Origin: Halorubrum depositum
GTDB taxonomy: Archaea; Halobacteriota; Halobacteria; Halobacteriales; Haloferacaceae
DNA length: 64,000 nucleotides
Assembly (NCBI RefSeq): GCF_007671725.1
Contig: NZ_VCNM01000002.1
Span: forward strand, 124,001 to 188,000
Reading direction: 5' to 3'
The first letter of the stretch is position 1. Each line of letters begins with the position of its first letter. Below, piece after piece: positions 32,221-44,898 of this stretch. The position numbers and the translations under genes were made by a program. The notes below the pieces were generated by a model. That model was not told the origin of the DNA. It was given only the letters and a program-made list of their open reading frames with translations, and did not search any database.

Positions 32221-32604
32221 CTACAGCGTGATCACGTGGTCGACGCCGACCTCGCCGAGCGCCTCGTAGAGGTCGGGGAAGCAGCCGACCGCGGCGCCCT
32301 CGACCGTGTTCGTCGGTTCGTAGCGGTCGCGGCCGTGCTCGTCGGTCCGATCGAACTCGGCGAGCCCGCGGCGGGTGGCGCACTGGTCGCACAGCATGAG
32401 GAGGATCTCCCGCTCGGCCGCCACGTCGGCGAGCCGCTGCCCCAGCGGGTCGTCCTCGCGGAGCGCGTAGGTGTTGTCGTGGAAAAAGAACATCCCGACC
32501 ACGTCGGCGCCGTGCGCTCCGGCCTCCAGCTGCGGGAGGATCATGTCCCCGAGCACGTAGTCGATGGTCTGTCCGGCCGTCGCGAAGACGTAGGCGACCT
32601 TCAT
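32221..32604 (-). CDS. DsrE-family sulfur-carrier-like protein
   Basis: A 127-residue cytoplasmic protein of the DsrE/TusD-like fold (MKVAYVFATAGQTIDYVLGD). A CxxC pair in LMLCDQCATRRGLAEF sits where DsrE-type proteins hold the persulfide-carrying Cys, and a third Cys follows in VGCFPDLYEALGEVGVDHV. ATG 32604 is chosen since the frame upstream is a shadow of the next gene. It ends the minus-strand unit of exported sulfur-type proteins, 100 bp after the second beta-propeller gene. Family knowledge suggests sulfur relay; partners are inferred from context. Confidence 0.8.
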   Translation of the reverse strand: MKVAYVFATAGQTIDYVLGDMILPQLEAGAHGADVVGMFFFHDNTYALREDDPLGQRLADVAAEREILLMLCDQCATRRGLAEFDRTDEHGRDRYEPTNTVEGAAVGCFPDLYEALGEVGVDHVITL

Positions 32605-32704: not shown

Positions 32705-33760
32705 TCAGACCACGACGGAGCCGAAGGGGTACGCCCCCGTCTCCGCCGTCCATATCGTGCCCTCCGCGACGTCGACGAGCGAGACCCGGTCGTCGTCGTA
32801 GTGCGAGACGACCAGCCGGTCGCCGACGCGGGTCGCGACGAGGCCCGGCGCCGGCGTTTCGACGACCGCTCCCGAGAGCGACCGGAGCCGGTCCGCGGCC
32901 GCGTCGAGCACCCACCACTCGCCCTCGATCCGGAACAGGTCGACTGGGCGGTCGAACCCCTCGTGGACCGTCGCGAGGCCGAGGTCGCGGTCGAACTCGT
33001 GGACGACCCCGTCGCCGCGGCCGGGGACGAAGACGCGGTCGTCCGTGACGACGAGGTCGTACGGGTCCGCGCCGACGGCGGCCGCGCCGAGGACGGGAGC
33101 GTCGGAGGGGTCGCCCGGCTCGTCGGTCCCCTCCGCCCCGCCGACCGCCCCAGGATCGAAGGCGACGACGCGGGCGCCCGCCTGATCGACGGCGTAGCCG
33201 CGGTCGCCCTCGGGGCCGACCGCGACGCCCTGCACGCGGGCGTCATCGCCGACGTCGACGGCGCCGAGCCGCTCGCGGGCCGCGGGGTCGACGACGTCGA
33301 CGACGCCCTCCCGGCGGCTCCCGACGTAGAGCCGGCTCTCGTCCGGAGAGACGGCGACCTCGTGGGGCTCGGCGCCGACCGCGATCCGGGCGACGAGCGT
33401 CAGCGACTCGGGGTCGACGACGGCGAGCGCGTCGCCGGCGCTACAGGAGACGAACAGCTCGCCGTTCGCGGCCGCGAAGTGAGAGGGGCCGAGCACGCCG
33501 GTTTCGATCCGCGAGACAGCTCCGTTCGGGTCGACCGCGGTTATCGCCCGCTCGCCCATGGTCGCGACGAACGTACGCCCTCGGTGGGTCGTCGCGTGAA
33601 CCGGATGGCTCCCGACCGGGACCTCGCCGAGCGGCTCCCCGTCGGAAAGCGCGAACAGCGCGAGGGCGTCGTCGCCCTCGCAGGGGACCGCGACGAGGCG
33701 GTCGGCCGGGCGATCGGAGTCGCCCGCGTCGCCGCGGTGGGCCGCTCCGCCACCCGTCAT
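32705..33760 (-). CDS. YncE-like beta-propeller protein without signal peptide
   Basis: A 351-residue protein of repeating beta-propeller blades of the YncE/cytochrome cd1-like type: PVGSHPVHATTHRGRTFVAT, IAVGAEPHEVAVSPDESRLY, VGPEGDRGYAVDQAGARVVA and similar. There is no signal peptide or lipobox at the chosen ATG 33760, which overlaps the stop of the upstream rhodanese-fold gene by 4 nt. The next gene upstream and the first gene of the unit are clearly exported, so a cytoplasmic propeller is odd, or it is exported by another route. Two Cys are visible (VAVPCEGDD, FVSCSAGDA). Function unknown; a scaffold or sensor is possible. Confidence 0.75.
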   Translation of the reverse strand: MTGGGAAHRGDAGDSDRPADRLVAVPCEGDDALALFALSDGEPLGEVPVGSHPVHATTHRGRTFVATMGERAITAVDPNGAVSRIETGVLGPSHFAAANGELFVSCSAGDALAVVDPESLTLVARIAVGAEPHEVAVSPDESRLYVGSRREGVVDVVDPAARERLGAVDVGDDARVQGVAVGPEGDRGYAVDQAGARVVAFDPGAVGGAEGTDEPGDPSDAPVLGAAAVGADPYDLVVTDDRVFVPGRGDGVVHEFDRDLGLATVHEGFDRPVDLFRIEGEWWVLDAAADRLRSLSGAVVETPAPGLVATRVGDRLVVSHYDDDRVSLVDVAEGTIWTAETGAYPFGSVVV

Positions 33761-34878
33761 CCCGTACAGGAGAAATCGCCGCCGCCGTCGCCGCCGCCGA
33801 CGCTTCCCTCCGTCTCGATCACGACGCTCGTCGCGGTCTCGACGGGGTACCGCCCGCGGTCGCCCTCGACGTTCGCCCACTCGCCGAAGCCGCCGTCGTA
33901 CACGCGCACGTCCTCGAAGCCGATCGCCCGCAGCGTCAGCCACGTCGACGTGGGGTCGACGTTGTCGTCGCCGTACACGACGACGGTGCCCGCGCGGTCC
34001 AGCTCCGCCTCGCCCTCGTACAGCTGCACGAGTCGTCCGGGGTCGGTCATCCGCCGGCCGGAGACGTTCCCGACCCAGTGGACGCCGATCGCGCCGGGGA
34101 GGTGGCCGTGGCGGTCGTTGTCGGGGTCCAGCGCGTCGGCGGCGGGCGCGCCGAGGTACGCCTCGGGGACGCGCACGTCGACGAGGCCGGGGCCGTCGCC
34201 GTTGAACGTCCCGACGCGGTCGGCGAGCCACTCGCGGGTGACCCACGCCGACTCGGCGGGGTCGGGATCGTACTCGGTCGGTTCGATCCGATCGCGAGAG
34301 CCCGTCCCGAGCCGGCCGTTCCAGCCGGAGATGCCGCCGTTGAGGACGCGGACCGAGCCGGCGTGGCCCAGCGCCGCGAGCGCGAACGCGGTCCGCGTCA
34401 CCCGAGACCCGACGCTCGCGCCGTAGACGAGCACGTCGTCGTCGGGCGACACGCCGACCTCGCCGAACGCGGTCGCGATCGCCGCGACGTCCGGGACCAG
34501 GCCGGCGTCGGTCGACGCCCGGCTCGTGATCGCGTCGAACGGGACGCGCCTGGCGCCGTAGATTCGCTCTTTGCGGAAGTTCTCCGAGTCCCGGGCGTCG
34601 AGGACGACGACGTCCTCGCGGTTGTCGGCGAGCCAGCGCGGCCCGACGAAGTGGTCGACGTTCCCGGTCAGCTCGTACTGCGCGGCGGTGTCGGCCGGGG
34701 TGGTGACCCCGAGACAGCCGGCGGTGCCGGCCGCACCGGCGACGGTCGCCCCGGCCGCGGCCCGGAGGAGCCCGCGGCGGGTCGACGCCGGGTCGGACTC
34801 GTCCGCCCCGTCGGCTCCGGTCGCGTCTCCCTCGCCCCCGTCGACCGCGCCGTCGTCCGGCGTGTTATGGGAGACCAT
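33757..34878 (-). CDS. Exported double rhodanese-fold lipoprotein with C-terminal Cys arm
   Basis: A 373-residue Tat lipoprotein (STRRGLLRAAAG, lipobox GTAGC). Two rhodanese domains follow: VVVLDARDSENFRKERIYGA to VRVLNGGISGW, and LVDVRVPEAYLGAP to VRVYDGGFGEWANVE. The active-site loops read VLVYGASVGSR and VVVYGDDNVDP, so neither has the catalytic Cys. The only cysteines in the protein are the lipobox Cys and one three residues from the end, on a Gly-rich tail (GGGDGGGDFSCTG). This resembles the mobile Cys arm of SoxY in thiosulfate oxidation. It starts one base from the stop of the upstream propeller gene. A sulfur-carrier role is inferred. Confidence 0.82.
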   Translation of the reverse strand: MVSHNTPDDGAVDGGEGDATGADGADESDPASTRRGLLRAAAGATVAGAAGTAGCLGVTTPADTAAQYELTGNVDHFVGPRWLADNREDVVVLDARDSENFRKERIYGARRVPFDAITSRASTDAGLVPDVAAIATAFGEVGVSPDDDVLVYGASVGSRVTRTAFALAALGHAGSVRVLNGGISGWNGRLGTGSRDRIEPTEYDPDPAESAWVTREWLADRVGTFNGDGPGLVDVRVPEAYLGAPAADALDPDNDRHGHLPGAIGVHWVGNVSGRRMTDPGRLVQLYEGEAELDRAGTVVVYGDDNVDPTSTWLTLRAIGFEDVRVYDGGFGEWANVEGDRGRYPVETATSVVIETEGSVGGGDGGGDFSCTG

Positions 34879-36255
34879 CTACCCGCAGTAGCAGTGGTCG
34901 TCCATGCACCACGACGCCTCCATCTCGCCGAAGGTGACGCCGAGGGAGGCGAGCGACGCCTGGATGCTCGACACCGCGTCCCCCTCCGGGCGGACCGTGC
35001 CGGCGACCGCGCCGGTGGGCGCCTCGCCGGCCTCGACCGTCGCGACGACCTCGCGGCTCGCGTGTTCGATCACGGCGACCTGGTTCGCGTCCTGCACCGG
35101 GACGTACAGCTTCTCGCGGTTCGGCCCCCACGCGCCGGCGATGCTGCTGCCGCCGACGTCGAGCGTCGTCGCGTACTCGTTCGCCTCGAGGTCGATCACG
35201 CCGACGCCCTCGCCGGGGATGAAGAGGTACGCGGCGGTGTTGTCGGGGGCGACCTCGCTCGTGATCGGCGCGCCCGGGAGCCCGTCGTCGCGGGTGATCT
35301 TCGCGATCTCCTCCGGGTTCTCCGGGTCGGAGACGTCCCAGACGCTCTCGGAGCCCTCGCGGGGCACCTCGGGGTCGCCGCCGAGCGTCCCCTCGCCGTT
35401 CTCGACGAGGAGGAGCTCCCCGTCGAAGGAGGCGGTACACATGAACGGGAGGACGTTGCCCTCGGTGACCGGCTCGCCGGCGTCGACCCGGTTCACCGTC
35501 TCGAACGGGTCGACGCTCAGCACGCGGATCGCCTCGTCGGCGACGTCGACGACGAAGGCGTAGTCGCCGTCCGGGCCCAGCGTCATGTCGCAGGGGCCGA
35601 CGTAGCCGGTCTCGATCTCGGCGGTCACCTCGCCGAAGGTGTCGCTGTCGCGGTTCGCGTCGACGCGGAAGATGGCGTGGTTCGCGTCGCCCTCGGGCTC
35701 CATGCCGGTCGTCCCGCCGGAGGCGATCAGGAGGTGCTCGCCGTCGGGCGTCACGTTCGGGTAGTTCGGACCGTATCCAGTCTCGACGAAGGCGAGCTCC
35801 TCGAGGGTGCGCTGGTCGAGCGCGCGGACGCCGCCGGAGACGTTCAGCCAGAGCACGTCGTGTTCGTCGTCGATCCCCGTGGCGTACTGGTTGGCCGGGA
35901 AGGAGGCGGTCGTGCCGAGGAACGCGGTGGTGAGCAGCTCGTCGCTCTCCGTGTCGACGACGCTCAGCGTCCGGTCGCCGTTGTTGAAGACGAACATCGT
36001 CGGCGCGGGCTCGTCGCCGCCCCCACCGCCGCCGCCCGAACAGCCGGCCAGCGCCGTCGTCGCGCCGACGGCGCCCGACGCCTGCAGGAGGCGTCGCCGG
36101 TCGATCCCGTCGGCGAACGGGTTGCGGCGGTCGTCGTTCGCCAGCACGCTCCCCTTCGCGGGGCGGGCTGCCGCGCCGTCGGACGCGCCGGGCGTCTCGT
36201 CGCCCGAGGCGCACGACGCCGCGTCGTTCGTTCCACATCCGCAGTCGTCGCTCAT
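34879..36255 (-). CDS. Exported YncE-like beta-propeller lipoprotein with Cys-rich ends
   Basis: A 458-residue Tat lipoprotein: IDRRRLLQASGAVG is preceded by an unusually long N-region (about 50 residues, containing DDCGCG), and the lipobox is ALAGC. A propeller of the YncE type follows (FVFNNGDRTLSVVDTESDEL, VTPDGEHLLIASGGTTGM, MTLGPDGDYAFVVDVADEA, TSEVAPDNTAAYLFIPGEGV). The C-terminus ends WCMDDHCYCG, three Cys and one His that could bind metal or carry sulfur. ATG 36255 is chosen since the frame upstream runs through the promoter. It is first in a four-gene unit divergent from a YeeE-type transporter. Confidence 0.78.
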   Translation of the reverse strand: MSDDCGCGTNDAASCASGDETPGASDGAAARPAKGSVLANDDRRNPFADGIDRRRLLQASGAVGATTALAGCSGGGGGGGDEPAPTMFVFNNGDRTLSVVDTESDELLTTAFLGTTASFPANQYATGIDDEHDVLWLNVSGGVRALDQRTLEELAFVETGYGPNYPNVTPDGEHLLIASGGTTGMEPEGDANHAIFRVDANRDSDTFGEVTAEIETGYVGPCDMTLGPDGDYAFVVDVADEAIRVLSVDPFETVNRVDAGEPVTEGNVLPFMCTASFDGELLLVENGEGTLGGDPEVPREGSESVWDVSDPENPEEIAKITRDDGLPGAPITSEVAPDNTAAYLFIPGEGVGVIDLEANEYATTLDVGGSSIAGAWGPNREKLYVPVQDANQVAVIEHASREVVATVEAGEAPTGAVAGTVRPEGDAVSSIQASLASLGVTFGEMEASWCMDDHCYCG

Positions 36256-36410: not shown

Positions 36411-37619
36411 ATGATGCTATCGCCCGTCGCTTACGTCGGGATATCCATCGCGGTCGGGCTCTCGTTCGGGGTGCTGTTACAGAAGGCGCGGTTCTGCTTC
36501 GTCAGCGCGTTCCGGGACTTCGTCGCGTTCAAGGACACCCGCGTGCTGAAGGGGTTACTCGCCGGGATCGCGGTGATGACCGTGTTCTGGAGCGTCCAGG
36601 CCACGTTCGGCTACTTCCGCGGCTTCTGGACGCCCGCCTGGGGGCTCGGGTCGCTGTTCGGCGGCTTCGTCTTCGGGCTCGGGATGACGCTCGCCGGCGG
36701 CTGCGCGTCCGGCACCCTCTACCGCGCCGGACAGGGGTACCTCCAGTTCTGGCTCGTCCTCCTCTTCATGTTCGTCGGCTACGTCCTCTTCGCGTTCGCG
36801 TTCCCCGTCGCGGAGACGTACTACTTCCAGACGCTGAACCCGTTCGACGGGCGGACGCTGTACCTCTCGCTGCCGTTCTCGCCGGCCGTGACGGGAGCCG
36901 GCGCCGTCGCGCTCGGCACCCTCGCGTACGCGTTCGTGAAGGGGAAGAGCCGGCTCCCCGACGACCCCTCCGGCGGGACCGGCGTGGGGGCCGACACCCG
37001 CGCGCAGGCCGCGCTCGGCGGCTCCCGGACGTTCTCGGCCGTCTCGGTCGGCCTGCGCGGCATCGCCGATGGGACCGTGGAATACGCCCGCGGGCTCCGC
37101 GACGACGACCGACCGCTGAAGGTCCGCCTCCGCGACTCGTGGGACGCGCGGACCGCCGGCGTCGCGATGGCGCTCGTCGCGAGCCTCTGGTTCTACGTGC
37201 ACGGCCACTGGGCGATCACCGGCAGCGAGGCGCGCTGGGCCGGCTACCTGCTCGGGCAGGCGGGGTACGACGTCGCGAGCGTCGAGTACTGGGGCTCGAT
37301 CCTCTTCCGCGACGGGAACATCTCGCTGACCATCGACATGGTGATGATCGCGTCGCTCGTCGTCGGCTCCTTTATCGCCGCGTACGCCTCCGGCGACTTC
37401 CGGATCCGCAAGCCGAAGCTGAACCGCGTCCCCAACTACGCCGCGGGGGGCCTCCTGATGGGCGTCGGCTCGCGGCTCGCGGCCGGCTGCAACATCGCGA
37501 ACCTCTTCTCGGGGGTCGCGCTGCTGTCGGTCCACTCCTTCCTGGCCGGCGCGGGGATCATCCTCGGCGTCTACGTGATGACCCACTACATGTACCGCGA
37601 GGTCGGCTGCGCGATTTAG
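36411..37619 (+). CDS. YeeE/YedE-family (thiosulfate-type) membrane transporter
   Basis: A 402-residue integral membrane protein with about ten helices in two related halves. Cys motifs typical of the YeeE/TsuA sulfur-transport family are present: LLQKARFCFVSAFRD at the N-terminus, MTLAGGCASGTLYRAGQGY in the first half, and SRLAAGCNIANLFSG in the second; a last Cys lies in REVGCAI at the end. Characterised members import thiosulfate by relaying it along these Cys. It is divergent from the exported propeller and Cys-arm genes, suggesting a joint system for capture and uptake of reduced sulfur. Confidence 0.88.
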   Translation: MMLSPVAYVGISIAVGLSFGVLLQKARFCFVSAFRDFVAFKDTRVLKGLLAGIAVMTVFWSVQATFGYFRGFWTPAWGLGSLFGGFVFGLGMTLAGGCASGTLYRAGQGYLQFWLVLLFMFVGYVLFAFAFPVAETYYFQTLNPFDGRTLYLSLPFSPAVTGAGAVALGTLAYAFVKGKSRLPDDPSGGTGVGADTRAQAALGGSRTFSAVSVGLRGIADGTVEYARGLRDDDRPLKVRLRDSWDARTAGVAMALVASLWFYVHGHWAITGSEARWAGYLLGQAGYDVASVEYWGSILFRDGNISLTIDMVMIASLVVGSFIAAYASGDFRIRKPKLNRVPNYAAGGLLMGVGSRLAAGCNIANLFSGVALLSVHSFLAGAGIILGVYVMTHYMYREVGCAI

Positions 37620-37649: not shown

Positions 37650-38825
37650 TCAGCCCGAACCGGGATCGAGGACGACGACGTCGCTGATCTCGAATCGGGT
37701 CCCGCCCGTCGGGGAGTCGGTCACCTCGATTCGCCAGTCGTGGGCCTGCACGACGCTCGCGACGATCGCCAGCCCCAGACCGCTGCCCTGCGACTCCGAC
37801 GAGTACCCCCGCTCGAAGACGGAGTCCCGCTCGCTCGCCGGGATGCCCGGCCCGTCGTCCTCGACGTAGAAGCCCGCTCCGTCGGGGAGCGCGCCGACGC
37901 GGACGGTCACCCCGCCGCCCCCGTGCTCGATCGCGTCGCCGGGCTTCGCCCGGCTACTCGCGGAACCGTGCTCCACGCTGTTCCGAAAGAGGTTCTCGAA
38001 CAGCCGCCGGAGGCGGTCGGTCGCCGCCCGGATCGCGAGGTCCGTCTCGACGCGGAGCTCCGACTCCCCGGTCACGACGGACTCCCAGCACCCGTCGGCC
38101 ACCGACGCCAGTCGGACCTCTTCGGCCGACTCGACGGTCCGGCCCTGTCGGACCATCGTCAGGACGTCCTCGATGAGCTCCTCCATCCGGTCGAGCGCGT
38201 TCGCCGCGGTGTCGAGGTGCCGATTCCCGGTCGACTTCCGAGCGAGATCGACGTACCCCTGCGCCACTCCCAGCGGGTTTCGCAGGTCGTGAGCGAGCAC
38301 GCTCGCGAACTGGTCTAACCGCTCGATCTCGGCCGCGGTGCGCCGGCGCTGCAGCTCGTGTTCGAGCATCCGGGCGATCAGCTCCGCGAACAGGGTCTCC
38401 TCGTCGCTGAAGGGTCGGGACCGGGCGTCCTCGGAGACGAAACAGACCGTTCCGTACAGCTCGTCGCCGACGACGATGGGGCTCCCGTGATAACACCGGA
38501 GCCCGTGCGCCTCGAAGGCGGGGTCGTCGGCCCACCCCTGTTCGGGGGCATCGTGGAGCGCGACCGTTCCGCCGTCGGCGACGGCGCGCCGACAGTACGT
38601 GGTCCCGAGGTCGAGAACGAGTCCGGACGGGAACGCCCCGTCCGGCGGGTCAGTGCTGGCGACCGTCTCCCAGTAATCGGTGTCGGGATGGATCTCCGTC
38701 AGGTGCGCGTTCTCGACGTCGAGGTACCGTTTGCCGAGCGCGAGCGCCCGCTCGGCCTTCGCGTCGAACTCGCGAGGCTCGTTCATCACCTCGTAGAGCT
38801 CCCGGCGTGCCGTCCCGGCGTCCAT
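37650..38825 (-). CDS. GAF-domain sensor histidine kinase
   Basis: A 391-residue cytoplasmic two-component kinase without membrane helices. Residues about 30-170 form a GAF domain (LTEIHPDTDYWETVAS, then YGTVCFVSEDARSRPFSDEE). The phosphoacceptor box is FASVLAHDLRNPLGVAQGYV and the ATP-binding domain has LFENLFRNSVEHG, FYVEDDGPGIP and GSGLGLAIVASVVQ. ATG 38825 (MDAGTARREL) is chosen over the longer frame, whose 40 extra residues are not GAF-like. No response regulator is adjacent, which is usual in haloarchaea. It is convergent with the YeeE gene; a redox or sulfur signal is possible but unproven. Confidence 0.85.
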   Translation of the reverse strand: MDAGTARRELYEVMNEPREFDAKAERALALGKRYLDVENAHLTEIHPDTDYWETVASTDPPDGAFPSGLVLDLGTTYCRRAVADGGTVALHDAPEQGWADDPAFEAHGLRCYHGSPIVVGDELYGTVCFVSEDARSRPFSDEETLFAELIARMLEHELQRRRTAAEIERLDQFASVLAHDLRNPLGVAQGYVDLARKSTGNRHLDTAANALDRMEELIEDVLTMVRQGRTVESAEEVRLASVADGCWESVVTGESELRVETDLAIRAATDRLRRLFENLFRNSVEHGSASSRAKPGDAIEHGGGGVTVRVGALPDGAGFYVEDDGPGIPASERDSVFERGYSSESQGSGLGLAIVASVVQAHDWRIEVTDSPTGGTRFEISDVVVLDPGSG

Positions 38826-38970: not shown

Positions 38971-39306
38971 CTAGGCGTCCGCGGGCGAACCGGTCTCCAG
39001 CTCGAAGTCCCACTCCTCGTAGCCGCCGGACATGCTGGCGACGACGACGTCCTCCTCGACGCCCTCGTAGCTGCTGATCAGCATCGCGGCCTGCTTCGAG
39101 GACTGGCCGACCGGACACGCGCAGACGACGTCGGTGTCGTCCCACTCGATGTCGGGGACTCGGGCGGGGAGGTCGCCCAGGGGCACGTTGATCGCGCCGG
39201 GGATGTGACCTTGCTCGTACTGCGCCGGCGGTCGCGTGTCGATGACGCGGATGTCGCCCTTCCGAACGCGCTCGTTGACTTCCTCGGGGGTGAGTTCCTC
39301 GACCAT
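38971..39306 (-). CDS. Single-domain rhodanese sulfurtransferase
   Basis: A 111-residue cytoplasmic rhodanese. The fold is complete: VRKGDIRVIDTRPPAQYEQG, HIPGAINVPLGDL, the active-site loop CPVGQSSKQAAMLI with the catalytic Cys, and MSGGYEEWDF. The start at 39306 lies 2 nt after the stop of a TusA-like gene, so the two are almost certainly co-translated. A rhodanese plus TusA pair suggests persulfide generation and relay for thiolation, cofactor or cysteine synthesis. Confidence 0.9.
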   Translation of the reverse strand: MVEELTPEEVNERVRKGDIRVIDTRPPAQYEQGHIPGAINVPLGDLPARVPDIEWDDTDVVCACPVGQSSKQAAMLISSYEGVEEDVVVASMSGGYEEWDFELETGSPADA

Positions 39307-39308
39307 GA

Positions 39309-39608
39309 TTACTCCTTCCGCATGAAGATGCGGTAGCGGCCGTCGCCGGACTTCCAGACTTTGGCGGTCGCGTCGTCGCCGACCGCCTTCGGCACGTTCT
39401 CCGTGCTCGGAACGTGATCGGTCTCCTGGACGAGCACGTCGCCGGGGGCGAGCCCCGCGATGGCCTTCTTCGCCTCGACCTGCGGGTACGGGCAGACCTC
39501 GCCGGTCATGTCCTGTACCTCGGTCGCGTCCTCCAAGAGCGCTTCGGCGGTCTCGTCGTCGAGCTCGTCGGGCATCTCGACGACGTCGTCCCACGATGGT
39601 TGGCTCAT
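39309..39608 (-). CDS. TusA/SirA-family sulfur carrier
   Basis: A 99-residue protein whose C-terminal 65 residues form a TusA domain: DMTGEVCPYPQVEAKKAI (Cys39 in the Cys-Pro-x-Pro motif) and GDVLVQETDHVPSTENVPKA. An acidic N-terminal extension of about 30 residues precedes it, common in haloarchaea. The Cys carries persulfide sulfur in characterised relatives. It is first in a two-gene unit with rhodanese and is divergent from cysteine synthase. Confidence 0.9.
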   Translation of the reverse strand: MSQPSWDDVVEMPDELDDETAEALLEDATEVQDMTGEVCPYPQVEAKKAIAGLAPGDVLVQETDHVPSTENVPKAVGDDATAKVWKSGDGRYRIFMRKE

Positions 39609-39758: not shown

Positions 39759-40778
39759 ATGAGCGAGTACGTCGTCGACGAGTCGACGATCTTCGAGACG
39801 CCCCTCGTGGAGCTGGACCTCGACCTCGAGGCCGACGCGGACGTGTACGCGAAGGCGGAGTGGTTCAACCTCTACGAGGCCCCGCACGGCGGCGGGTCGA
39901 TCAAGTCCCGGATCGCGAAGGGGATGTTAGACGGCGCCGAGGAGCGCGGCGAGCTCGAGCCCGGCGTCACCGTGATCGAGCCGACATCGGGCAACACCGG
40001 CAGCGAGGTGGCGCGGCTCGCGGCCGCCCGCGGCTACGACGTGGAGATCGTCATGCCCGACAACGCGGCCGGCGGGAAGGTGGCTGCCGTCCGCGACGCG
40101 GGCGCGGAGATCCACTTCGTCGACGCCAACCTCGGCTACGACGCCGTCATCGAGCGCTGCGAGGAGATCATCGCCGCGGACCCCGACGCGTACTTCCGCC
40201 CGAACCAGTACGAGAACCCCGACAACCCCGGCACCCACGAGCGGACGACCGCTCGGGAGATCTACGAGGCGACCGACGGCGACGTGACGCACTTCGTCGC
40301 GGGCGTGGGCACGGGCGGGACGATCACGGGGACCGGCCGCGGCCTGACCGACCTGAGCGACGGCGCGGTGGAGGTCGTCGGCTTCGAGCCCGACGAGCGG
40401 CTCCACGCCATCGACGGCCTGAAATACCTCAAGACGGGCGACCACTACCACCCCGAGACGTACGACGAGTCGGTGCTCGACCGGACGGAGTACGTCACCA
40501 CTTCGGACGCGTACGACCGGGCGCGGGCGCTCCGCGACCGCTACCTCGACGACCCTGTCCCGATCGCCGACCCCGGCCAGCACGACGAGGCGACGGTCCG
40601 CGAGCACCTCCGCGTCGACGACCAGTTCGTCGTGGGCACCTCCGCGGGCGGCGGCGCGGCCGTGGTGGCGAACCTCGACGCGGCGGGCGAACTCGACGAC
40701 GACGACGTGGTCGTCTTCATGCTGTGCGACCGCGGCGACAAGTACGCGGACATCCCGCTCTGGGAGGACTACTTATAA
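39759..40778 (+). CDS. cysK: Cysteine synthase (PLP-dependent, CysK/CysM family)
   Basis: Replaces the beta substituent of O-acetylserine, or of O-phosphoserine in some archaea, with sulfide or a sulfur donor to form cysteine. The 339-residue fold-type II PLP enzyme has Lys49 in HGGGSIKSRIAKGML, the phosphate-binding loop VGTGGTITGTGRGL, and TSGNTGSEVARLAAARGYDV. The segment GGGSIKSR departs from the usual SVKDR. It lies beside TusA/rhodanese (divergent) and the ubiquitin-like gene (convergent). Whether it uses free sulfide or a protein thiocarboxylate is not known. A TATA box at 39731 supports ATG 39759. Confidence 0.93.
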   Translation: MSEYVVDESTIFETPLVELDLDLEADADVYAKAEWFNLYEAPHGGGSIKSRIAKGMLDGAEERGELEPGVTVIEPTSGNTGSEVARLAAARGYDVEIVMPDNAAGGKVAAVRDAGAEIHFVDANLGYDAVIERCEEIIAADPDAYFRPNQYENPDNPGTHERTTAREIYEATDGDVTHFVAGVGTGGTITGTGRGLTDLSDGAVEVVGFEPDERLHAIDGLKYLKTGDHYHPETYDESVLDRTEYVTTSDAYDRARALRDRYLDDPVPIADPGQHDEATVREHLRVDDQFVVGTSAGGGAAVVANLDAAGELDDDDVVVFMLCDRGDKYADIPLWEDYL

Positions 40779-40812: not shown

Positions 40813-41076
40813 TTACCGACCGCCGGACGCGGCGGGGATGACGCGGACCTGCGCGTCGGCCGGGACCTCGGCGTCGACGCCGTCGACGGGCGTCCCCTCG
40901 ACGTAGACGTTGATGAACTCCTTGATCTCGCCGTCCTCGAGCACGCTGTCCCGGAGCTCCGGGCCGTGCTCGTCGGCGTGGTTGTCGAACAGTTCGCGGA
41001 CGGTGTCGCCCTCGACCTCGACCTCCGAGGTCGCGGACCCGCCGACGAGGACGGCCGGCAGTTTAATCGTGGCCAT
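40813..41076 (-). CDS. MoaD/SAMP-family ubiquitin-like protein ending in GGR
   Basis: An 87-residue beta-grasp protein: LPAVLVGGSATSEVEVEGDT, then ELFDNHADEHGPELRDSVL, FINVYVEGTPVDGVDAEV, and the end VRVIPAASGGR. MoaD, ThiS and SAMP proteins normally end in Gly-Gly, which the E1 adenylates; here an Arg follows, so removal of one residue is probably needed before activation. The E1-like ubaA is divergent next door (273 bp between starts), cysteine synthase is convergent, and a JAMM peptidase lies 3.4 kb away. Role could be sulfur carrier for cysteine or molybdopterin, or protein modifier. Confidence 0.88.
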   Translation of the reverse strand: MATIKLPAVLVGGSATSEVEVEGDTVRELFDNHADEHGPELRDSVLEDGEIKEFINVYVEGTPVDGVDAEVPADAQVRVIPAASGGR

Positions 41077-41349: not shown

Positions 41350-42204
41350 ATGAGTGACCTCGACCTCGATCCGACGCAGCTCGACCGCTACTCCAGACAC
41401 ATCATCATGGACGACGTGGGCCCCGAGGGCCAGAAGGCCCTGCTCGACGCCGAGGTGCTCGTGCTCGGCGCCGGGGGGCTCGGCGCGCCGATCATCCAGT
41501 ACCTCGCGGCCGCCGGCGTGGGCACGCTCGGCGTCGCCGACGACGACGAGGTCGAGCTGTCGAACCTCCAGCGACAGGTGATCCACGGGAACGACGACGT
41601 CGGGCGCAAGAAGGTCGACTCCGCCGCCGACTTCGTCGAGCAGCTCAACCCCGACATCGACGTCCGGAAACACGAGCTTCGGGTGACCCCCGACAACATC
41701 GAGGAGCTCATCTCCGGCTACGACTTCGTCGTCGACGGCACGGACAACTTCGCGACGCGATACCTCGTCAACGACGCCTGCACGCTCGCCGGGATCCCCT
41801 TCTCGCACGGCTCCATCTTCAAGTTCGAGGGCCAGGTGACGACGTTCGCGGGCGACGACGACTCGCCGTGTTACCGCTGTCTGTTCCCCGAGGCGCCGCC
41901 GGCCGGGATGGTCCCGAACTGCGCGACCGCGGGCGTCCTCGGCGTCCTCCCGGGCACCGTCGGCTGCCTGCAGGCGACCGAGACGGTGAAACACGTCATC
42001 GGCGAGGGCGAGTCGCTCGACGGCTCGATGCTGTTCTTCGACGCGCTCGAGATGGAGTTCGACAAGGTCGAGATCCCCAAGCAGGACGACTGCCCGGTGT
42101 GCGGCGACGACCCCGCCATCGAGTCGGTGCAGGACGTCGAGTACAACGCCTCCTGCGCCATCGACGTCGGCGGCGACGAGCCCGAGATCGAAGCGGACGA
42201 CTAA
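41350..42204 (+). CDS. ubaA: E1-like adenylyltransferase UbaA (ThiF/MoeB family)
   Basis: Adenylates the C-terminal Gly of SAMP/MoaD-type proteins and serves protein sampylation, tRNA thiolation and molybdopterin synthesis in haloarchaea. The 284-residue protein has RYSRHIIMDDVGPEGQKAL, the ATP loop LGAGGLGAPIIQYLAAAGVG, DNFATRYLVNDAC, zinc Cys pairs CYRC (174-177) and CPVC (248-251), and the probable catalytic Cys191 in MVPNCATAGVLGVLPG. There is no C-terminal rhodanese domain, unlike eukaryotic Uba4, but a rhodanese gene lies 2 kb away. Confidence 0.94.
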   Translation: MSDLDLDPTQLDRYSRHIIMDDVGPEGQKALLDAEVLVLGAGGLGAPIIQYLAAAGVGTLGVADDDEVELSNLQRQVIHGNDDVGRKKVDSAADFVEQLNPDIDVRKHELRVTPDNIEELISGYDFVVDGTDNFATRYLVNDACTLAGIPFSHGSIFKFEGQVTTFAGDDDSPCYRCLFPEAPPAGMVPNCATAGVLGVLPGTVGCLQATETVKHVIGEGESLDGSMLFFDALEMEFDKVEIPKQDDCPVCGDDPAIESVQDVEYNASCAIDVGGDEPEIEADD

Positions 42205-43703: not shown

Positions 43704-44473
43704 TGACACGCGTACTCGTTCCCGTCGCGGTGCTGGAGGGAGAGAGCGTCTCGCCCGGCCTGATGTCGCTGCTCGGGGGCGTCGACGTGACGGTGCTCGG
43801 CTATCACGTCCTCCCGGAGCAGACGCCGCCGGACCAGGCCCGGCTCCAGTTCGAGGAGCGCGCGACGTCGGCGCTGGAGGACCTCAGCCAGGAGTTTCGG
43901 GCCGCCGGCGGCGCGGCCGACCACCGGCTCGTGTTCACGCACGACCGCGAGCAGACGTTCGACCGCGTCGCCGACGAGGCCGAGGCGGACGCGTTCGCCG
44001 TTCCCGGGACGACCGGCGACGTCGACCGGGTCCTCGTGTCGCTCTCCGGCGACGTCGACGTCGACAGCCTCCTCTCGTTCGTCGAAGCGCTCGTCGGAGG
44101 TCGGGACATCGGCGTCACGCTGTTCCTCGCGGGCGGGGATGCGCCTCCCACCGCACCGAGCGACGGCGCGGCGGCGGACGCCGGTGACGGCGCCACGGCT
44201 GACGCCGGCGACGACGACGCAGCCCGGCTGGCGGCCGCTGCCGATCGGCTTTCCGAGGCGGGCATCGACGCGGACACGACGCTGGCGACGGAGGGGTCTC
44301 CGTTCGACGCGCTGATCGACGCGGTGCCCGGCCACGACGCGGTCGTGATGGGCGAGCGCGCGCCTTCGTTTCGGTCGCTCGTGTTCGGCGACGAGAGCGG
44401 GCGGATCGCGGCCGCCTCGGTCGGCCCGGTCCTCGTGGTTCGGGACCGGCGGGATGCCGAAAAAGAGGCCTAG
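43703..44473 (+). CDS. UspA-like universal stress domain protein
   Basis: A 256-residue cytoplasmic protein with one or two Usp-type domains (MTRVLVPVAVLEGESVSP and, after an Ala/Asp-rich linker, PGHDAVVMGERAPSFRSLVF with SVGPVLVVRDRR). It probably binds nucleotide and modulates the permease encoded by the overlapping gene before it. Its 3' end overlaps the 3' end of the JAMM gene by 4 nt on the other strand. Confidence 0.8.
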   Translation: MTRVLVPVAVLEGESVSPGLMSLLGGVDVTVLGYHVLPEQTPPDQARLQFEERATSALEDLSQEFRAAGGAADHRLVFTHDREQTFDRVADEAEADAFAVPGTTGDVDRVLVSLSGDVDVDSLLSFVEALVGGRDIGVTLFLAGGDAPPTAPSDGAAADAGDGATADAGDDDAARLAAAADRLSEAGIDADTTLATEGSPFDALIDAVPGHDAVVMGERAPSFRSLVFGDESGRIAAASVGPVLVVRDRRDAEKEA

Positions 44474-44898
44474 CGCTCGCTCCGCACCGAGACCGTCTCC
44501 TGTTCGAATCCGTCCTCGTCGTCCCGCCAGCGCCACGAGCCGACGAACGGGTAGCCGTCCAGCGCGCAGATCACGTACGAGTGGTCGGGCCAGGTCGCCC
44601 GCGCGGCGTCCGTCTCGCTCGGGTTGGTCGGGCCGGTGGGGTGCGAGTGATAGAACCCGACCACGTCGAGCCCGTCGTCCTCGATCGTCTCGATGAGCTC
44701 GAACTGCTCCTCGGGGTCGATGAGGTAGCGGATCTGGGGCGTGTCGGCGACGTTCTCGGCCTGATACGTCTCGGTGACGACGCTCGGCTCCCCGTCGGTG
44801 CCGTGGTCGCCCGCGAGGACGCCGCAGATCTCCGCTTCGCCGCCGCCGTACGCGTGGTACACGATGTCGTCGTAGACCGCTCGTGAGAGCTCGATCAT
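44470..44898 (-). CDS. JAMM/MPN+ metallopeptidase (desampylase-like)
   Basis: A 142-residue zinc peptidase of the JAB1/MPN/Mov34 family. The JAMM motif is complete: Glu23 in EAEICGVLAGD, His84 and His86 in VGFYHSHPTGPTNPSETD, Ser94 and Asp97. In Haloferax such proteins cleave SAMP conjugates, and in Mycobacterium the related Mec+ releases cysteine from CysO. Here a SAMP-like gene, ubaA and cysteine synthase lie within 5 kb, so both roles are possible, as is trimming of the SAMP-like protein. It is convergent with uspA and divergent from a DUF302 gene. Confidence 0.9.
   Translation of the reverse strand: MIELSRAVYDDIVYHAYGGGEAEICGVLAGDHGTDGEPSVVTETYQAENVADTPQIRYLIDPEEQFELIETIEDDGLDVVGFYHSHPTGPTNPSETDAARATWPDHSYVICALDGYPFVGSWRWRDDEDGFEQETVSVRSER

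Follow-up and report, generated by a model that had tools for sequence, protein, structure and literature searches.

Mycobacteria synthesize cysteine by the CysO-CysM-Mec+-MoeZ route. SoxY ends in GGCGG, and the Cys on this arm, third from the end, carries sulfur (PMC6067878); a hand-over of SoxYZ-bound sulfur to the YeeE-like protein SoxT, the nearest published idea to the one developed below, has been proposed in bacteria (PMC11582611). Here we describe RhoTail, an exported protein of Halorubrum depositum, encoded in a window of 64,000 nucleotides (the whole stretch analyzed: positions 124,001 to 188,000 of contig NZ_VCNM01000002.1) between the genes for two propeller proteins, PropA and PropB, and close to a YeeE transporter gene. 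With a probability of roughly 0.55, RhoTail would be a surface-anchored carrier of sulfane sulfur, i.e. a rhodanese in which a Cys on a flexible arm has replaced the catalytic Cys, feeding import via YeeE for cysteine synthesis. No description of this family was found in full-text literature searches, the coverage of which is incomplete.

Like SoxY in the SoxYZ complex, RhoTail is predicted to be extracytoplasmic and has a single Cys third from the end of a flexible, Gly-rich C-terminal arm, from which a carrier role may be drawn by analogy. Unlike SoxY, to which it is not homologous, it has a rhodanese fold, and its arm has the form (G/D/S)n-FSCTG rather than GGCGG. It shares this tandem rhodanese fold with the thiosulfate/3-mercaptopyruvate sulfurtransferases (e.g. 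CysA2/CysA3, 1UAR and bovine rhodanese), but differs from them in the replacement of the loop-2 Cys, the additional C-terminal Cys arm and its being an exported lipoprotein. Since the mode is SoxY-like while the fold and family are not those of SoxY, and the fold is that of a rhodanese without its defining catalytic Cys, we class RhoTail as a putative sulfur carrier whose Cys arm is borne by a rhodanese scaffold and which belongs with a YeeE import module. Its features are:

33757..34878, minus strand: RhoTail, a lipoprotein of the twin-arginine translocation (Tat) type with a tandem rhodanese fold and a C-terminal Cys arm, 373 residues (open reading frame, Pfam, model)
34714..34716, minus strand: lipobox Cys55 (TAG-C-LG; TAGCLG after the Tat RR motif), invariant in the homologue alignment
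34393..34425, minus strand: loop 1, residues 152-162, YGASVGSRVTR, without Cys, 8 of 11 positions invariant in the alignment
33940..33975, minus strand: loop 2, residues 302-313, YGDDNVDPTSTW, with Gly303 at the canonical position of the catalytic Cys, strongly conserved (alignment)
33760..33807, minus strand: Gly/Asp-rich disordered C-terminal arm, residues 358-373, ending FSCTG-COOH (alignment, model)
33766..33768, minus strand: codon of the tail Cys371, TGT (sequence)

The export signature comprises a Tat motif (T33, R34, R35) and the lipobox C55, all of which are invariant across the homologues, and in the mature protein Cys55 is expected to be blocked by lipid. RhoTail has two cysteines in total, C55 and C371, and a rhodanese fold: both points had been made in an earlier, sequence-only reading of this stretch and both are borne out. 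Pfam recognizes two rhodanese stretches (PF00581, E=7e-30) and no other family, and a sequence match links the protein to the solved sulfurtransferase 8k55 (E 8e-16). While AlphaFold2 with the orthologues alone yielded an unusable model (predicted local distance difference test, pLDDT, of 50), the addition of diverse rhodaneses led to a confident one, built from 58 rhodaneses (pLDDT 85, predicted template modelling score 0.80). The best PDB matches of its core are thiosulfate sulfurtransferases (Foldseek E=8e-17), and VIA-align returns a Z of 28 to 1UAR across 266 residues; Pfam, Foldseek and VIA-align thus agree on two rhodanese domains in the one chain.

As a rule, the N-terminal domains of tandem rhodaneses have no catalytic Cys in the loop concerned. 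Hence the loop-1 Gly (VYGASVG) is ordinary, and the loop-2 change alone is unusual: the claim of the sequence-only reading that both loops have Gly for Cys is correct as to the residues, but only its second half marks RhoTail out. In the canonical haloarchaeal rows shown, the loop-1 stretch is YDDTHGVFAAR. RhoTail's loop 2 (VYGDDNV, within YGDDNVDPT) aligns exactly with the catalytic loop YCRIGERS of 8k55, such that Gly303 replaces the catalytic Cys. Homologues were gathered by searching 170 genomes of the family as well as 125 family genomes around a genome designated G186, by profile searches of 391 genomes across the class and 393 across the phylum, and by one scan of a GTDB contig. Together these gave 32 distinct full-length homologues, mostly from Halorubrum, with others from Halobellus, Natrononativus and some uncultured haloarchaea; in the 393-genome phylum scan with the orthologue profile, strong matches were confined to the window's own order. 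At the catalytic position of the C-terminal-domain loop 30 of them have Gly and one has Glu, i.e. 31 of 32 are without Cys; the sole Cys is in the G186 homologue, whose loop 2 reads VYCVSGEF. Conversely, the loop Cys is present in all members of a comparison set of 59 other haloarchaeal tandem rhodaneses. Both Cys-less loops retain many invariant positions (Y152, G153, S155, V156, G157, R159, V160 and R162 in loop 1; V301, Y302, G303, N306, P309, T310, T312 and W313 in loop 2), on account of which the pocket probably still binds something.

The tail Cys, in contrast to the loop Cys, is present in 32/32 homologues, down to 43% identity, in an F-[ST]-C motif that reaches or directly adjoins the C-terminus; the comparison of tail and loop positions proposed by the sequence-only reading thus speaks for that reading. 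In RhoTail it is the third residue from the end (GGGDFSCTG; ...GGGDGGGDFSCTG-COOH). The endings are FSCTG in 30 homologues, FTCN in one (L107) and FSC in one (G186); thus, of the likeness to the SoxY arm asserted earlier, the single Cys on a flexible tail stands whereas the exact spacing is not invariant. Across the 30 FSCTG homologues the last five residues do not vary, and the preceding linker mostly varies among G, D, S and N, apart from invariant Gly at -12 and -7. The arm is expected from the model to be mobile, pLDDT falling below 50 at residues 365-368 and 370-373. Cys makes up 0.68% of the residues in the predicted proteins of the window, and only two of those of at least 100 residues, RhoTail and the adjacent PropA, have a Cys among their last five; on sequence grounds the terminal Cys of RhoTail is not a product of chance. 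With the loop Cys in 59/59 of the other tandem rhodaneses and a terminal Cys in just one of these, the two cysteines appear almost mutually exclusive. That one protein (L153:240-1031), a canonical haloarchaeal rhodanese with the loop Cys, ends in ...DIDC-COOH.

The stop codon of RhoTail overlaps the start codon of PropB, and a constraint on the DNA rather than the protein was therefore considered. It was rejected because the junction differs between homologues (GGATGA, GGCTGATG, AACTGATG, TGCTGATCGATG), the stop overlapping or abutting the next start in various ways, while F-[ST]-C stays. Judged by these junctions, it is the protein and not the DNA that demands the tail Cys, although the overlap may partly constrain the final 'TG' residues. 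An in-frame TGA or a selenocysteine in the G200 and G186 homologues was likewise rejected, the codon being simply a stop. As a separate observation, the tail Cys codon (33766-33768, minus strand) is TGT in 28 of 30 homologues, against a TGC:TGT ratio of 76:24 in the genes of the window, a preference that may have to do with how the following gene is translated.

In a maximum-likelihood tree of 91 sequences the tail-Cys group forms one clade (support 99/93), within which the double-Cys copy of G186 is sister to the other 31 homologues (support 100/100). Because it branches off before them, the tail Cys was probably gained with the loop Cys still present, and the loop Cys lost afterwards; the G186 branch is long, however, which brings some risk to its placement. 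The sequence-only reading had held that homologues retaining the loop Cys would speak against it; formally G186 is such a case, yet given its early branching it is read as an intermediate state. In its genome this homologue is one of four consecutive tandem rhodanese lipoproteins, with YeeE and TusA as neighbours; a further neighbour is read as a candidate persulfide dioxygenase-rhodanese, and PropA is absent genome-wide. A bolder formulation, to which we give slightly less than even odds, is that of an archaeal extracytoplasmic relay in which the rhodanese Cys moved from the loop to a swinging arm that feeds sulfane sulfur to the YeeE channel directly, for use in cysteine synthesis, convergent with SoxYZ-SoxT and with a double-Cys intermediate surviving.

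The same order of events would suit a different outcome, which we regard as unlikely: the tail Cys might enter RhoTail's own empty pocket and serve there as the catalytic Cys, leaving the protein a sulfurtransferase. Such a hand-over would require the tail Cys to arise before the loss of the loop Cys, as it did in the order favoured above; the invariant positions in both Cys-less loops would be explained, and an arm of about a dozen disordered residues could, to go by its length, plausibly reach the pocket. However, loop 2 (GDDNVDPT) no longer has the loop residues of active rhodaneses (CNTARR, CQTAIR), which makes thiosulfate chemistry in the pocket doubtful, and the confident AlphaFold2 model has the tail disordered rather than docked, though the lack of a confidently docked tail is in itself weak evidence.

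The wider setting of RhoTail is an operon with the gene order PropA-RhoTail-PropB-SaoD/DsrE, a divergent YeeE gene and, beyond it, a set of sulfur-transfer and cysteine-synthesis genes:

34879..36255, minus strand: PropA, a Tat lipoprotein with a YVTN-type beta-propeller, ending WCMDDHCYCG-COOH (sequence, family match)
32705..33760, minus strand: PropB, a second, YVTN/YncE-like propeller, no export signal seen (family match)
32221..32604, minus strand: SaoD/DsrE family protein with a CDQC motif (NF040913, above cut-off)
36411..37619, plus strand: YeeE/YedE sulfur transporter, divergent (family match)
38971..39306, minus strand: cytosolic single-domain rhodanese (Rho1) with an active-site Cys (CACPVGQSS)
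39309..39608, minus strand: TusA/TsuB-like sulfur carrier
39759..40778, plus strand: cysteine synthase-like pyridoxal phosphate enzyme of the CysK/M family (below NCBIfam cut-offs)
40813..41076, minus strand: small MoaD/SAMP1-like sulfur-carrier protein (below NCBIfam cut-off)
41350..42204, plus strand: SAMP-activating E1 enzyme, UbaA/MoeB-like (above cut-off)
44470..44898, minus strand: JAMM metalloprotease of the desampylase family (above cut-off)

The linkage to the transporter is close. In a sample of 52 Halorubrum genomes, across which RhoTail is patchily distributed, YeeE occurs in 24 of the 25 with RhoTail and in none of the 27 without it (Fisher P=6e-14, uncorrected for shared ancestry); in the 25th, the draft genome G123, YeeE is not present and RhoTail is truncated where a contig ends. 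The distribution of TusA is alike except in G146 (86% identical) and G148 (a fragment). The arrangement of YeeE facing PropA-RhoTail-PropB is kept in most loci of several haloarchaeal genera, and TusA, Rho1, cysteine synthase, MoaD/SAMP, UbaA and JAMM are found at most of them, including those of Natrononativus and Halobellus; the NCBI annotation of the corresponding region in Halorubrum salinarum agrees. The linked YeeE has C29, C98 and C360 matching the three transport cysteines C22, C91 and C293 of StYeeE, in addition to a C-terminal Cys400, and is accompanied by the TusA/TsuB partner. The transporter itself terminates in REVGCA[ILY]-COOH (37599-37616, plus strand), whose Cys, at the third-last position, is conserved in 30 of 31 aligned sequences, the remaining one being gapped there. 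Between YeeE and the small rhodanese lies a GAF/histidine-kinase gene (37650-38825, minus strand), a possible sensor for the cluster; other clusters (L136, L137) also contain a relative. In Halorubrum G146 (L130:8792-13107) the TusA, Rho1, cysteine synthase, SAMP, UbaA and JAMM block occurs without YeeE or RhoTail and its cysteine synthase spans two overlapping frames; this block looks like a decaying cluster.

These neighbours set the locus apart from Sox loci, in that they are genes of cysteine synthesis: SoxZ, SoxAX, SoxB and SoxCD were unrecognized among the neighbours examined, with SoxZ, SoxAX and SoxB not searched for genome-wide. PF13501, the SoxY family, is not matched by RhoTail, the Pfam scan giving rhodanese alone and the model matching rhodaneses; a SoxY search of the 52 Halorubrum genomes gave no match, but no control genome gave one either and absence is not claimed. 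The interpretation of the sequence-only reading is supported in part, the neighbourhood being one of sulfur trafficking; thiosulfate oxidation in the Sox sense is not supported, as YeeE, TusA, cysteine synthase, the SAMP1-like protein, UbaA and desampylase point to sulfur import and cysteine assembly instead. The cluster resembles the TsuA/TsuB (YeeE/YeeD) thiosulfate uptake system in pairing a YeeE that has the matching transport cysteines with a TusA/TsuB-like partner; it differs in the almost constant linkage of YeeE to an exported RhoTail, and usually PropA, neither of which is mentioned for E. coli or Spirochaeta in the available portions of the literature on that system. As in the CysO-CysM-Mec+-MoeZ pathway, a cysteine synthase is combined with a small MoaD/SAMP1-like protein, an E1 and a JAMM protease, but the haloarchaeal proteins match SAMP1, UbaA and desampylase models, and their activity is a prediction.

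PropA raises a further alternative, a mixed disulfide linking Cys371 to the C-x3/4-C-x-C-G tail of PropA in a redox or structural complex without any sulfur carriage. The two genes adjoin without a spacer, the start codon of RhoTail immediately following the PropA stop; their products share the terminal Cys otherwise missing from the larger window proteins; and the three cysteines of the PropA tail (C-x3/4-C-[YA]-C-G) are conserved in 34/34. Moreover, PropA is found at nearly all loci with a RhoTail lacking the loop Cys, the loop-Cys-bearing G186 genome being without it. Yet the tail Cys is retained in that PropA-less genome, and also at G124 and J07HX64, where PropA is not beside RhoTail; PropA thus cannot be a strict partner of RhoTail, and we consider such a complex distinctly improbable. 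PropA itself is also Cys-rich ahead of its Tat motif (MSDDCGCG), and its C-terminus is a possible metal or redox tail. Three Halorubrum genomes encode a divergent PropA (74-78% identity, with the same CYCG tail) apart from any YeeE or RhoTail (L127:9544-11331, L128:9906-12065, L129:6397-7893), with a DUF302-type gene beside two of them and a desampylase also beside one. In PropB, Cys27 and Cys106 are conserved in 32/32.

A second context of the SaoD/DsrE family is seen in Thermus oshimai and Thermomicrobium roseum (L121:8001-11725, L119:7094-10405), where its genes adjoin those of zinc-type ATP-binding cassette (ABC) transporters, in the former also beside two propeller-like hypothetical proteins; the YeeE/rhodanese cluster is not shared by the surroundings in Thermus. 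The least probable of the alternatives is a cluster for metal uptake or detoxification, in which RhoTail and PropA would use their Cys tails to bind copper, mercury, zinc or selenium species, for although a review ties the gene group of SaoD relatives to metal(loid) resistance (PMC13188914), the zinc-type ABC neighbours fit, C-x-C tails look like metal sites and YeeE-family members also serve selenium, the cluster has TusA, cysteine synthase, UbaA/SAMP1-like proteins and YeeE but no recognized metal pump, and a lone Cys is a poor metal site.

Returning to RhoTail as a sulfur carrier for YeeE, the tail thiol would be loaded outside the cytoplasmic membrane with sulfur (thiosulfate sulfane sulfur, polysulfide or similar), perhaps with the assistance of PropA, and the conserved Cys-less pocket would dock the donor anion or the loaded tail. 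The tail would then offer its sulfur to C360, the YeeE Cys that lies furthest out, for transfer inward via C98 and C29 to the Cys of TusA as the cytoplasmic acceptor; the small rhodanese, followed by the SAMP1/UbaA/cysteine-synthase/desampylase set, would carry the sulfur on to cysteine. Several points weigh against this proposal: StYeeE and E. coli YeeE import free thiosulfate, YeeD being essential and an external carrier not described in the available part of that account (PMC11073785); PropA is not beside RhoTail at the two loci named above; and the zinc-type ABC context of SaoD/DsrE in Thermus and Thermomicrobium could hint at a metal role.

The SoxT paper (PMC11582611) leaves open by what means YeeE-type transporters receive their sulfur on the outer face of the cell. 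With an exported Cys-arm protein that is almost perfectly associated with YeeE, and a genus of which many members are in culture, this question becomes testable. RhoTail also offers a case, ordered by phylogeny, in which a catalytic Cys has been relocated out of an active-site loop onto a swinging tail, the basal relative having both and the rest the tail Cys alone. Finally, the cluster suggests a route of the SAMP1/UbaA type by which some haloarchaea would turn imported sulfane sulfur into cysteine.
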